A DNA stretch of 64,000 nucleotides from Halobaculum sp. XH14 (GTDB lineage: Archaea; Halobacteriota; Halobacteria; Halobacteriales; Haloferacaceae): contig NZ_CP134949.1 of the NCBI RefSeq assembly GCF_032116555.1, positions 3,162,001 through 3,226,000 on the forward strand, read 5' to 3'. A program made the position numbers and the translations under genes. The notes under the pieces were generated by a model. The model was not told the DNA's origin. It ran no database searches and worked only from the letters and a program-made list of their open reading frames with translations. Shown one piece after another: positions 47,775-51,849 of this stretch (positions are counted from its first letter, which is position 1; the number at the start of each line of letters is the position of its first letter).

Positions 47775-47849
47775 AGCGGGATGGGATAGCCAGGAGATTC
47801 CGCCGGGCTCATAACCCGGAGATCGGTAGTTCAAATCTACCTCCCGCTA
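47775..47849 (+). tRNA. Initiator tRNA-Met (anticodon CAT)
   Basis: Acceptor stem AGCGGGA/TCCCGCT with discriminator A; anticodon stem CCGGG/CCCGG with loop CTCATAA, anticodon CAT; T-arm GGTAG-TTCAAAT-CTACC. The A1-U72 pair and the GGG/CCC run at the base of the anticodon stem are initiator hallmarks. No intron. CCA is not encoded. It would serve translation initiation. The last 20 nt are repeated downstream at 47969. Confidence 0.95.
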
Positions 47850-48037
47850 TGATTTCCGGCACACGATACGAACGGCGAGCGGAGCGAGCCGTGCGCCGGA
47901 GTGTACGTCCGAGGTAGATTTGAAGAGGACGAGGCGCGCGCAGCGTCAGCGAGCACGTCTCGGCGTGGTTCAAATCTACCTCCCGCTACTTCTCCGCGAC
48001 GTTCACGGCGAACGACGAGCGAAGCGAGTCGTGCGCC
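47829..48037 (+). repeat. Duplicated tRNA 3' end with covarying hairpins
   Basis: The tRNA 3' end at 47829-47849 recurs exactly at 47968-47988 (21 nt), and 14 nt of it also occur inverted (GAGGTAGATTTGAA, 47911-47924). After each direct copy, about 20-25 nt on, comes a hairpin: ACGGC/GCCGT around GAGCGGAGCGA, and ACGAC/GTCGT around GAGCGAAGCGA, both followed by GTGCGCCGG. The unit of about 70 bp is thus repeated at a 139-bp offset. The rest of 47850-48148 holds another GC-rich hairpin near 48079-48118 and no gene. Confidence 0.8.
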
Positions 48038-48148
48038 GGCCCGCGACCGCGTTTCGAGGCGACGCCCCGACGCCATCGACCGCGAACGTCGAGCACAGCG
48101 AGACGCGAGCGGTCGAGTCGCGCGGGAGGGCTCACGAACGGTTCGAAC

Positions 48149-49462
48149 TCACAGCAGGTCCAGCAGCGGCACCGCGAGGCCGACGACCCAGGCCGCCGCC
48201 CCGAGCAACCGAACGTGTCGGCCCGTCGTCCCGCCGCGGGCGGTGCCGGCGGCGATCAGCCCGAGCGCGGCGAGCAACCAGCCCCGGTGGAACACCAGCC
48301 TGACGGGGATGACGGCGACGCCCATCGTGGCGAAGCTCAGGACGAACGCGATGCCGGTCCCGACGCCGACGAGGGTGAACGCCGTCGCGGGGTCACAGCC
48401 GCGGGTGAACCGGCGGCGGGAGGCGACGAGCGGCATCCCGAGGGCCAGCACCGGGTAGAGTGCGGCCGCGATGAGTTTCGGGTGGAGCCACGGGACCGTC
48501 GTCTCCAGCGCGATGCCGCCCGTTCGAACCCCGAGCACCAGTCCCGCGAGCAGCCCCGCCAGCAGGATGCCGCCGCGCCGGTCGGCCGCTCCGCGGGCGA
48601 GTCGTCGTCCCGTGAGCGTCACCGACAGCCGGCGGTCGGACGAGACGATGCCGAGCAGTCCGGCCGCGGCGGTCGAGGCGAGCGCGCCGGCCAGTCCGCG
48701 GGAGCCGAGCAGGGCCGCGGCGAGGTGGACGACCGAGAGCCAGCCGTCGCTCCGGCCGCCCCGGATGCCGTAGTACTCCCGGTCGACGTCCTCGACGTAC
48801 GGCTCCCCGATGAAGTCGGCCTCCACCCGCCGCGCCGGTTCGTGCGTCCGGGGCACGGTGTGGCGGAGCCGGAACCAGTCCCAGTAGTCCGCGTGGACCT
48901 GCAGCGCCGTCCAGTCGTCCTCGGGCGACGCGTACGCCCGGACGTGGTATCTGGAGCCCAGATACGGGCCGTCCCTGAGCTGGTAGCTCTCCCGGACCCA
49001 CCGTCCGCCGGGGTCGTCGGGCGAGGAGTCGACGTAGGAGTACCTGACCGCGCCGTGGGCGTCCGTCCACTCCAGCCCGTCGTCCGTCACCGCGACCGAG
49101 CGGCTCGCGTTCCCGGCCCCGGCGTCGTCGGCGCTCGTGCCGACAGCGTCGCTCGTCCCGTTCCCGGTCCGCATCGGTTCGAACGAAAGGCTTCCGCGGT
49201 GCTCCAGCACGTCCCGGACGACGTCCGTGTCGCCGTGGACGACGAGGTTGATGGCGAGCGTCCGCCCCGTGACTGACTGCCGCCGGCTGGTGTAGGGCCA
49301 GAGGGAACTGTCGTCGCCGGCCGGATGGATGAGTCGGTCCGCCCCGACCCGCTCGGGTCCGGCAGGGTCACTCGCCGCCGGCCCGAACGCGACCGAGAGC
49401 CCCGCCAGTACGACCGGGAGCAACAGCAGCGTGACCGCGACCGTCCGCCGCCGCGAGACCAT
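48149..49462 (-). CDS. Membrane protein with exported domain, paralog of 49760-51355
   Basis: 437 residues. An uncleaved or signal-like helix (TVAVTLLLLPVVLAGLSVAF) precedes an extracytoplasmic domain (about 30-245) with SLWPYTSRRQSVTGRTLAIN, YASPEDDWTALQVHADYWDW, FRLRHTVP and DREYYGIRGG. Five or six C-terminal helices follow (GGILLAGLLAGLVLGVRTGG, KLIAAALYPVLALGMPLVAS). The family is unknown; the next gene upstream is its paralog. Both are minus strand and separated by 297 bp. Confidence 0.8.
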   Translation of the reverse strand: MVSRRRTVAVTLLLLPVVLAGLSVAFGPAASDPAGPERVGADRLIHPAGDDSSLWPYTSRRQSVTGRTLAINLVVHGDTDVVRDVLEHRGSLSFEPMRTGNGTSDAVGTSADDAGAGNASRSVAVTDDGLEWTDAHGAVRYSYVDSSPDDPGGRWVRESYQLRDGPYLGSRYHVRAYASPEDDWTALQVHADYWDWFRLRHTVPRTHEPARRVEADFIGEPYVEDVDREYYGIRGGRSDGWLSVVHLAAALLGSRGLAGALASTAAAGLLGIVSSDRRLSVTLTGRRLARGAADRRGGILLAGLLAGLVLGVRTGGIALETTVPWLHPKLIAAALYPVLALGMPLVASRRRFTRGCDPATAFTLVGVGTGIAFVLSFATMGVAVIPVRLVFHRGWLLAALGLIAAGTARGGTTGRHVRLLGAAAWVVGLAVPLLDLL

Positions 49463-49759: not shown

Positions 49760-51355
49760 TCACAGCAGGCTGACCAGCGGCAGCACGAGGCCGACGACCC
49801 ACGCGCCGATTCCGAGCAGTCGGAGGTATCGCCCCGACGGGCCGCCCTGCGCCGTGCCCGCGGCGACGAGGCCGAGGGCGACGAGGAGCCCGCTCCGGTG
49901 GAGGACGAGACCGATCGGGACCGTGGAGACGCCGATCACGCCGAAGTCGAGGACGAAGGCGGCGCCGACCCCGACGGCGACGAAGCCGAACGCCGCGCTC
50001 GGGTCGATGTCGCTCGTGAACCCGTTCATCGAGGCGACCGTCGGCATCCCGAGCGCGAGTACGGGGTACAGCGCCGCGACGATGAGCTTCGGGTGGAGTC
50101 CCGGGAACGTCGTCTCGACGGCGATACCGCCGAGGCGGACCCCGAGGACGAGGGCGGCCAGCAGCCCCGCGAGCAGGATGCCGCCGCGCTGCCGGTACGC
50201 GTCCCGCCGGAGCCACCGATACGTCCGTTCGGCCGCCGTTCGCGTGTCGGTCGAGAACGCGCCGAGCAGGCCGAGCGCGGCCAGCGCGGCGACGCCGCGG
50301 AGCGACGAGAAGACGGGCACCGTCGGGGCGAGTTCGACTTCGGAGAGCCAGCCGTCGCTGCCGCCGCCCTCGATGCCGTAGTACTCCCGGCTCACGTCAC
50401 CGACGTACGGCTTCCCGATGAAGTTGGACTCGACGGTTCTGACCGGTCCCCGGGTGGCGGGCACGGTGTGGCGGAGCCGGAACCAGTCCCAGTAGTCCGC
50501 GTGGACCTGCAGCGCCGTCCAGTCGTCCTCGGGCGACGCGTACGCCCGGACGTGGAGGCGCGACCCGAGGTAGGGGCCGTCCCTGAGCTGGTAGCTCTCC
50601 TCGACCCAGCGCCCCCTGCCGTCGCTCAGGTTCGTGTCGATGAACGTGTACCGGACCGCGCCGTGAGCGCCGGTCCACTCGAACCCGGTCGGCCTGATCT
50701 CGACGACCTGGCTCTCGTTGTTCGTCCCGTTGGCGACCGATCGATCGGCCGTGGCGGACTCGTTCGGAGTCAGCGTGGCGTTGGGCGTGAGCGTCGCGTT
50801 CGGAGTGGAAATCACGCTCAGAGTGGCAGTCGCGTTCGCAGTGGCAGTCGGGGTCGCAGTGGCCGTCGCGTTCGAGTCGGCCGGCGGCCCCGGCGTCCCT
50901 GCCGTCCCCGCCGCTCCGTCGGCTCCCGTTCCGGTTTCGTCGTCGGTGCCGTCGGCCGATTCGGTTCCGTTCACCGATGCGGTATCGGCGGCTGTCGTGC
51001 CGTTCGCGGGGCCGTCACCGCCGAGGAACGTACCGTTCCGGCTCGCGTTCTCACCCTCGTACTCCACCGGCTGGAAGTCGAGGTCCCCCCGCTTGGTCAG
51101 CGCGTGCCGGACGTTCTCCTCCGAGCCGTGGACGATGATGTTGATGGCGAGCGTCCGACCGGCGACGGACCGCCCGCTGCTGGTGTAGGGCCACAGCGCG
51201 CTCCCGTCGTCGGTCGGTCGGATGAGCCGTTCCTGGGCGACCTGATCGGCGTCGCCGGCGGCTCCGGTCCCCGACTCGAACGCGCCCGAGAGCCCCCACA
51301 TGGCGGCCGTGAGGAGCAGGAGCGTGACCGCGAGCGCGCGCCGACGAGAGACCAT
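49760..51355 (-). CDS. Membrane protein with sequon-rich exported domain, paralog of 48149-49462
   Basis: 531 residues. It has the same plan as its paralog: signal-like helix (ALAVTLLLLTAAMWGLSGAF), exported domain with ALWPYTSSGRSVAGRTLAIN, YASPEDDWTALQVHADYWDW and SREYYGIEGG, then C-terminal helices. It is about 95 residues longer owing to an insert at about 105-215 of Asn-Ala-Thr and Asn-Gly-Thr repeats (SVISTPNATLTPNATLTPNE), giving many N-glycosylation sequons. It is probably a glycosylated surface protein. ATG 51355 gives the start MVSRRRALAVTL shared with the paralog. Confidence 0.8.
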   Translation of the reverse strand: MVSRRRALAVTLLLLTAAMWGLSGAFESGTGAAGDADQVAQERLIRPTDDGSALWPYTSSGRSVAGRTLAINIIVHGSEENVRHALTKRGDLDFQPVEYEGENASRNGTFLGGDGPANGTTAADTASVNGTESADGTDDETGTGADGAAGTAGTPGPPADSNATATATPTATANATATLSVISTPNATLTPNATLTPNESATADRSVANGTNNESQVVEIRPTGFEWTGAHGAVRYTFIDTNLSDGRGRWVEESYQLRDGPYLGSRLHVRAYASPEDDWTALQVHADYWDWFRLRHTVPATRGPVRTVESNFIGKPYVGDVSREYYGIEGGGSDGWLSEVELAPTVPVFSSLRGVAALAALGLLGAFSTDTRTAAERTYRWLRRDAYRQRGGILLAGLLAALVLGVRLGGIAVETTFPGLHPKLIVAALYPVLALGMPTVASMNGFTSDIDPSAAFGFVAVGVGAAFVLDFGVIGVSTVPIGLVLHRSGLLVALGLVAAGTAQGGPSGRYLRLLGIGAWVVGLVLPLVSLL

Positions 51356-51420
51356 CCGTTCCGTCCAGAGACGGGCCGCTCGGGTATAAGCTGTCTGCCG
51401 GATGGCGCGCTGCCGTCGCT

Positions 51421-51849
51421 TCAGGAGCCGGTGAAGTCGATGCGGCCCCCGGAGTCGCCGTCCCGCTCGACGCCGCTCCCGCCGATGTGCTCGAAGCGGT
51501 ACGCCTCGTCGGTCAGCACCACCGAGCCGTCCTCGACGCCGACCTCGACCGTCTCCAGCATCGCCCCCTCGCAAGGGCCGAAATCACAGATGCCGGTGTC
51601 AAGCTGGAACGTCGCGCCGTGTTTCTGACAGACGACTTCCCCGTTTCTGACCAGTCCGCCGTCGCCCGAGTCGAGGCGGACGTCGGTCCAGTGCTGGCAG
51701 ACGTTCCGGAACGCGACCACCGTGCCGTCCGAGAGCCGCGTGAGGAACGCCTCCTCGAGGGCTCCGTCCGCGTCGCTGACGGTGAACAGCAGCGTCGTGT
51801 CCCCGGGCACGTCTTCGAGGGCGGCGATGCGGGCGGGTTCGTCGCTCAC
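51421..51849 (-). CDS. Rieske-type [2Fe-2S] ferredoxin
   Basis: 142 residues. The Rieske cluster ligands are C51/H53 (VCQHWTD) and C74/H77 (VCQKHGATF), flanked by TGICDFGPCEGAMLETVEVG. It lacks a membrane anchor, so it resembles soluble Rieske ferredoxins of oxygenase systems. The partner is unknown. The first 45 residues are the beta domain (TLLFTVSDADGALEEAFLTR). The upstream side (higher coordinates) holds repeat copy D. Confidence 0.88.
   Translation of the reverse strand: MSDEPARIAALEDVPGDTTLLFTVSDADGALEEAFLTRLSDGTVVAFRNVCQHWTDVRLDSGDGGLVRNGEVVCQKHGATFQLDTGICDFGPCEGAMLETVEVGVEDGSVVLTDEAYRFEHIGGSGVERDGDSGGRIDFTGS

Follow-up and report, generated by a model that had tools for sequence, protein, structure and literature searches.

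Palindromic repeat units behind tRNA genes of haloarchaea: a possible gene-less element family, seen at a putative initiator tRNA of Halobaculum sp. XH14

A tRNA-Met(CAT) gene of Halobaculum sp. XH14, read as initiator tRNA (tRNA-iMet), is followed by a compact palindromic unit. In our tentative reading, to which we assign a probability of roughly 0.45, this unit is a member of a family of gene-less palindromic elements that would spread among tRNA 3' ends and amplify in tandem. Units of this kind sit behind tRNA genes for at least 15 amino acids, with His in addition in a sample of 44 units. No description of such arrays was found in the searchable part of the open-licence PMC literature, which does not cover subscription papers, nor in passages of PMC8371274, PMC3119063, PMC9897764, PMC7237163, PMC7911831, PMC9668308, and PMC7923331. 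Apparently, the tRNA-bound repeat element is widespread and undescribed; a repeat family of this type would affect the reading of integration-site scars, tRNA gene fragments, and draft assemblies in haloarchaea.

The window, that is, the whole stretch of 64 kb analyzed here, belongs to a haloarchaeal genome of 3.68 Mb (G000). The following features were located at the tRNA-iMet locus:

47775..47849, + strand: tRNA-Met(CAT), read as tRNA-iMet, anchor of the array (ARAGORN; Rfam RF00005, 60.5 bits)
47830..47849, + strand: first direct copy, tRNA nt 54-73, from T-loop to discriminator base (repeat comparison; nucleotide numbering by reading)
47855..47900, + strand: hairpin 1, outer stem TCCGGC/GCCGGA, inner stem ACGGC-GAGCGGAGCGA-GCCGT (repeat comparison, folding)
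47911..47924, + strand: inverted copy of tRNA nt 54-67, GAGGTAGATTTGAA (100% complementary to both direct copies)
47925..47968, + strand: core hairpin with GGCGTGG end, joined to TTC at the G53/T54 boundary (sequence, family comparison)
47969..47988, + strand: second direct copy, tRNA nt 54-73, 20/20 identical (repeat comparison)
48009..48039, + strand: second hairpin 1-like repeat, ACGAC-GAGCGAAGCGA-GTCGT (90% identity, spacing 140)
48076..48116, + strand: third, diverged hairpin of the hairpin-1 kind (74% direct repeat; arms 80% complementary)

The initiator identity rests on reading and is suggested by the A1-U72 pair together with three G-C pairs of the anticodon stem. An earlier note on this DNA had reported a duplication of the tRNA 3' end, an inverted copy of 14 nt between the direct copies, and a compensatory change in the hairpin behind each copy; all three observations were reproduced. 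The 21 nt at 47829-47849 (GTTCAAATCTACCTCCCGCTA) recur at 47968-47988 with a spacing of 139, and over 24 nt the repeat shows one mismatch. The inverted arm at 47911-47924 is 100% complementary over its 14 nt to 47830-47843 and also pairs perfectly with 47969-47982; the unit therefore consists of two abutting palindromes. The inner hairpins at 47872-47892 and 48012-48032 lie inside a 31-nt repeat (90%, spacing 140), and their stems change from ACGGC/GCCGT to ACGAC/GTCGT. The hairpin 1-like repeat at 48009..48039 is probably the start of a second, decayed unit. A third, weaker copy of the repeat (74%), absent from the earlier note, was found at 48083-48113. RNA folding of 47829-47990 gave a z value of -2.4 (3 of 200 shuffles were as good), the complement one of -1.7 (13/200). 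The window's own core is without the NNAG of the family pattern. Additionally, GAGCGNAGCGA, which allows two G.A pairs and a GNA loop, occurs five times in the 64-kb window, with 0.66 occurrences expected; three of these are located away from the tRNA.

Copies behind the tRNA genes of G000 were determined at an ungapped score of ≥12 within 400 nt. The tRNA's own 3' end was found again downstream of seven of the 43 genes (iMet, Lys-TTT, Lys-CTT, Ser-GGA, Glu-TTC, Leu-TAG, and Gly-TCC) and upstream of none (0/43). A direct or inverted copy was present downstream of 10/43 genes, either kind upstream of 0/43, and 33/43 had neither copy at score 12. As a control, each gene was also tested with the 3' end of another tRNA picked at random, and the threshold was reached downstream in 1/43 cases.

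The order was surveyed with the core pattern GATTYGAANNAG-N15..45-CGTGGTTCRAATC. It was present in 277 of 392 genomes and in 79 of 95 genera; these genome counts, like those that follow, are lower bounds because the window's diverged unit matches neither this nor a stricter core pattern. The reversed control gave none among the matches listed in this survey. In a sample of the phylum, 60 of 392 genomes carried the core pattern, all within the window's own order (81 genomes), as compared to 0 of the 311 genomes from other orders. The stricter core pattern, applied to a collection of 84,980 species, yielded 44 matches in 43 stretches, all of them haloarchaeal by title. Both patterns fix the T-loop arms, and arm pairing in pattern-selected sets is therefore no evidence. 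The unit samples used below (44, 32, and 51 units) overlap in part (locus L176 equals L277, L164 equals L203), and close species as well as both units of one locus were counted, so that the counts are not independent events.

Single genomes can carry several units. G247 showed 11 matches to the core pattern; tRNA-Lys(CTT) with a common core and hairpin 1 occurs at two sites on one chromosome (L255 and L261 in G206), and tRNA-Val(CAC) with a matching unit is present on both the chromosome and a large plasmid of Natronorubrum bangense (L146, L148). Two Natronorubrum plasmid records were also returned by blastn, and a phage record from human faeces was disregarded at an E of 0.3. Viral contigs searched with two patterns gave 0 matches, and no vehicle was seen. 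A known RNA family was considered as the identity of the unit and rejected, since among eight sources searched against Rfam the gathering score was reached only by tRNA; four other, unrelated families listed up to E 0.5 stayed below their own gathering scores.

Linkage of the units to tRNA genes was found in all three samples. ARAGORN called an upstream tRNA on the same strand in 41 of the 44 named matches, two more were recognized by eye (an intron-bearing tRNA at L132 and a tRNA end at the contig edge at L165), and the last one (L147) had only a T-arm-like copy. The second sample comprised 32 units in 30 loci, 31 of them behind a tRNA. The exception, L170 (G266:C2, near 1492023), is located at a tRNA-Val and has its core inverted between inverted T-loop arms; it is the only recognized inverted core among 127 unit records (44 + 32 + 51, some counted twice, L147 being without known orientation). 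Apparently, the core of a unit can flip. The third sample contained 51 units in seven genomes, and 49 had a tRNA within 450 nt upstream; the exceptions were a further unit with a tRNA-Ser copy (19/20) and a unit with a 20/20 copy at an intron-bearing tRNA, judged tRNA-Trp by eye. In the 40 kb upstream of L170 and of L273, no same-strand tRNA was called; an opposite-strand tRNA and an intron-bearing tRNA, respectively, explain this. The orientation of the units is nearly always tRNA-sense. Absence was also seen: about a dozen of 30 iMet loci showed no unit by eye.

Furthermore, the copies match the tRNA behind which they are located. The patterns fix the first 8 nt of the 20-nt copy and leave nt 62-73 free; over these 12 positions, copies in the 41 named units were identical to their own tRNA at 10.9/12 as compared to 5.3/12 for tRNAs for other amino acids, and the own tRNA was the best match in 39/41 (17 isoacceptors). 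Identity of the copy was at least 17/20 in 74 of the 80 units with a called tRNA in the 32- and 51-unit samples. The remaining six fell below 17/20, one of them at 11, and the best match to any other tRNA end reached at most 17/20. The boundary between element and tRNA lies at G53/T54 on one side (part-fixed by the pattern) and at about nt 73 on the other, by reading. A match of the inverted arm to its own tRNA beyond the T-loop was weak across loci (2.4 vs 2.0 of 6); arms as long as those at iMet and Lys are thus not general.

The structure of the core hairpin was analyzed in 134 distinct units among the matches listed. Among the 57 cores of type A, the first four positions of the inner stem were paired in 54, 55, 55, and 57 cores, with several pair types each, as compared to shuffled means of 27, 27, 46, and 28. 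The 65 type B cores contain two tandem G.A juxtapositions (57/65 and 62/65), and 12/134 cores belong to neither type; here, too, the counts apply to the matches listed. Among these same matches, the tRNA-sense strand folded better in 127/134 cores with RNA parameters and in 132/134 with DNA parameters, a predicted strand bias which suggests that selection acts on the folded sense strand, either as RNA or as single-stranded DNA. The ratio of A.C to G.U was 12:0 at stem positions 1, 2, 5, and 6 of type B, whereas positions 1-7 of type A showed the opposite balance, 9 G.U vs 1 A.C (both among the matches listed); these opposite balances give no decision between RNA and DNA. The core edges NNAG...CGTGG recur over many genera and tRNAs.

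The number of units varies between loci. At the tRNA-Lys(TTT) loci read in one genus (39 genomes searched), 0-4 exact downstream copies of nt 54-73 were found, and up to six when ≤5 mismatches were allowed. G123 carries four identical 111-bp units in tandem and G104 tandem units of 3 x 122. In G015, the tRNA-Lys abuts the hairpin and flank which are found after the second copy in Halorubrum distributum (L164, identical to L203). The difference between the two is exactly one unit, by insertion or by repeat-mediated deletion; G015 is not a bare site, because hairpin 1 is kept in both and the inverted arm is present in G015. Between adjacent units, the farther copy was the worse one in 6 pairs and the better one in 3, with no difference in 13, so that ordered growth from the tRNA end is a weak proposition.

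Cores are shared within genomes. The core alignment score per position was 0.205 within a genome across tRNAs vs 0.055 between genomes and tRNAs (0/500 permutations), a difference to which genome composition may contribute in part. When cores at a given tRNA were compared between genomes, the score was 0.099 (43/500 permutations), which leaves room for vertical inheritance. This test comprised 69 units with five multi-unit genomes; L170, L176, any unit lacking a tRNA within 450 nt, and cores identical to one another at a single tRNA had been dropped, and the 44 named units remained outside. In G154, Leu, Arg, Lys, and a second Leu tRNA are followed by near-identical cores, and the copies match their respective tRNAs at 17-20/20. 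From core sharing within a genome together with tRNA-fitted copies, it seems that the cores travel and the 20-nt copies stay local.

The reading that we prefer, a mobile family of gene-less palindromic elements, would account for a recurrent order of nt 54-73 copy, hairpin, inverted T-loop arm, core hairpin ending in CGTGG, and next nt 54-73 copy. Units would move from tRNA gene to tRNA gene within a genome, and insertion would duplicate about 20 bp of the target tRNA and leave the tRNA intact. The mobilizer would most likely be an integrase or a similar enzyme provided from elsewhere that recognizes the folded tRNA-sense strand, and recombination between the 20-bp copies might then lengthen or shorten tandem runs. 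If the units are mobile, the question is which process duplicates nt 54-73 in nearly any tRNA. A more specific version, an integron-like gene-less system, appears quite doubtful to us: a recombinase acting on the folded tRNA-sense strand of the core would insert hairpin cassettes of about 100 bp, the first 20 bases of which would rebuild the tRNA 3' end, resulting in genome-specific arrays behind many tRNA genes. Features invoked for it are the outer arms, the spacer, the inner stem, the variable tip, and the junction at G53/T54.

The units could also be palindromic satellites without a dedicated enzyme, arising by slippage, unequal recombination between the 20-bp copies, template switching in hairpins, and core transfer by TTCRAATC microhomology. 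Template switching that keeps arms and stems complementary is known as quasi-palindrome correction. Identical tandem units with 20-bp repeats are readily accommodated in this way, as are the long arms with perfect pairing at certain loci (iMet, 14 nt; tRNA-Lys, 19 nt), the one core inverted between its inverted arms, and hairpins of G000 and G001 that differ in a compensatory manner by reading. However, identical core edges over many genera and tRNAs argue against it, the non-complementary tandem G.A juxtapositions of type B would not be kept by template switching, and just one core is inverted in the overlapping samples; we regard satellites as somewhat unlikely. Alternatively, the units may serve a host RNA function: they would be transcribed as tRNA trailers whose hairpins act in tRNA 3' maturation by protecting, timing, or regulating it, and the inverted arm could open the T-stem until a second copy neutralizes the arm. 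Near-constant tRNA-sense orientation, better folding of the sense strand, and covarying stems are consistent with such a role. Modeling of 56 pre-tRNAs also points to it: the mean predicted T-stem probability is 0.72 for the tRNA alone (12/56 below 0.5) and drops to 0.19 with a trailer ending at the inverted arm. Inclusion of the 8-nt T-loop copy gives 0.45, with 19 pre-tRNAs brought back above 0.5 and 27 not, and inclusion of all 20 nt of the copy gives 0.65. An RNA device of this kind would be an unusual tRNA trailer, combining an arm able to open the T-stem with a protecting copy. Against it stand the 33/43 tRNA genes of G000 with neither copy, the unit-free iMet loci, loci such as G015 which end in the inverted arm without a second copy, and the A.C excess in type B, which is not favored by RNA pairing, although type A is opposite; moreover, the fold effect follows from geometry alone. 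An RNA function is unlikely in our view.

The earlier note had also suggested that the duplication could be the scar of a lost element, which would have borne an integrase. Here, tRNA 3' ends are indeed integrase sites, according to the part of PMC8371274 consulted, and the tRNA is restored by a direct copy of its 3' end within the unit. In G000, a stretch of about 9.5 kb separates tRNA-Val(CAC) from a unit (L110; G000:C1:2344800-2364700); at its unit-side end, it has a tyrosine integrase divided between two frames (P0001, P0002; Pfam). This stretch further contains a DDE transposase and a citrate transporter-like gene and looks like a decayed integrated element. However, a separate partial tRNA 3' end (12/13 nt) precedes hairpin 1 by reading; the element, the only integrase element seen at such a tRNA, thus appears to have inserted itself between the tRNA and a unit that was already present with its arms. 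The suspicion, derived from L062, that the unit is the attachment arm of this integrase element was dropped on the same ground. An integrase similar to P0001/P0002, the only type searched, was found near 0/44 units in stretches of up to 8 kb. The build is compact with short spacers, it recurs behind many tRNA types in many genera, and related genomes have the tandem copies without an integrated element. The scar is largely refuted and very improbable.

Among known systems, the E. coli tyrV/rttR repeats are the closest analogue, in arrangement. The E. coli tyrV/tyrT trailer repeats (rttR RNA, tpr) are known from one tRNA locus. Like the haloarchaeal units, they are in tandem directly behind a tRNA, each with a copy of the tRNA 3' end, and these copies begin inside the T-loop by reading; the tyrV stretch of E. 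coli K-12 contains three 203-nt copies at a spacing of 178 bp. In contrast to the haloarchaeal units, they have a longer unit, an annotated ncRNA, and a small ORF, and the units had no match to an rttR-type RNA family in Rfam (8 sources).

The ends of IS605-type elements fold strand-specifically as single strands. Of the mobile repeats of haloarchaea, SMR-A and PATE elements are the nearest, as far as the text available of PMC3119063 goes. SMR-A of Haloquadratum walsbyi is a gene-less repeat of about 110 bp with inverted repeats, its mobilization being called "enigmatic" by the authors; the targets are near-terminal palindromes of IS605-type elements and PATEs, without target duplication (PMC3119063, in part). 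The units differ in that they are sited at tRNA genes and have copies of about 20 nt. For PATEs and IS200-IS605 ends, the same partial source describes gene-less elements with near-terminal palindromes and reports no target duplications (PMC3119063). A derivative of PATEs would be expected to have a Y1 (HUH) transposase available in its genome; a search for the Y1 family gave 0 matches in G000 and matched 260/392 genomes, G247 with its 11 pattern matches not being among them. A Y1/IS605 transposase was thus rejected as the present mobilizer, on the 0 matches in G000; such an enzyme may have acted in the past or come from outside. At four Y1 loci, CGTGGTTC was absent, and one lone left-edge match was obtained, in L201.

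In integrons, the junction of attC recombination is G^TT, and the R-box consensus is RYYYAAC/GTTRRRY. The unit arms GATTYGAA/TTCRAATC (by pattern) misfit GTTRRRY, since the base after GTT is C. Likeness to attC sites and CALIN arrays as presented in the sections seen of PMC9668308 and PMC7923331 lies in the imperfect hairpin, paired outer arms, unpaired spacer, inner stem, variable tip, and arrays. Unlike in integrons, no gene cassettes were seen and the arms are tRNA T-loops; the main text of PMC9668308 contains no words beginning with "Halo". The units resemble att sites of archaeal tyrosine integrases in that a direct copy of the tRNA 3' part leaves the tRNA intact (PMC8371274, in part). 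They differ in having no integrase found (P0001/P0002 type, 44 units) and no cargo, and in carrying an additional inverted arm as well as hairpins that recur.

Two 90-bp direct repeats at a tRNA-Arg of Hfx. gibbonsii were called a likely misassembly in the passage seen of PMC7911831; they could be units of the haloarchaeal tRNA-bound kind. In the window, downstream of the iMet array, the ORFs 48149-49462 (-) and 49760-51574 (-), for neither of which a Pfam match was obtained, are neighbors with products that look alike by reading and are possibly tandem paralogues.
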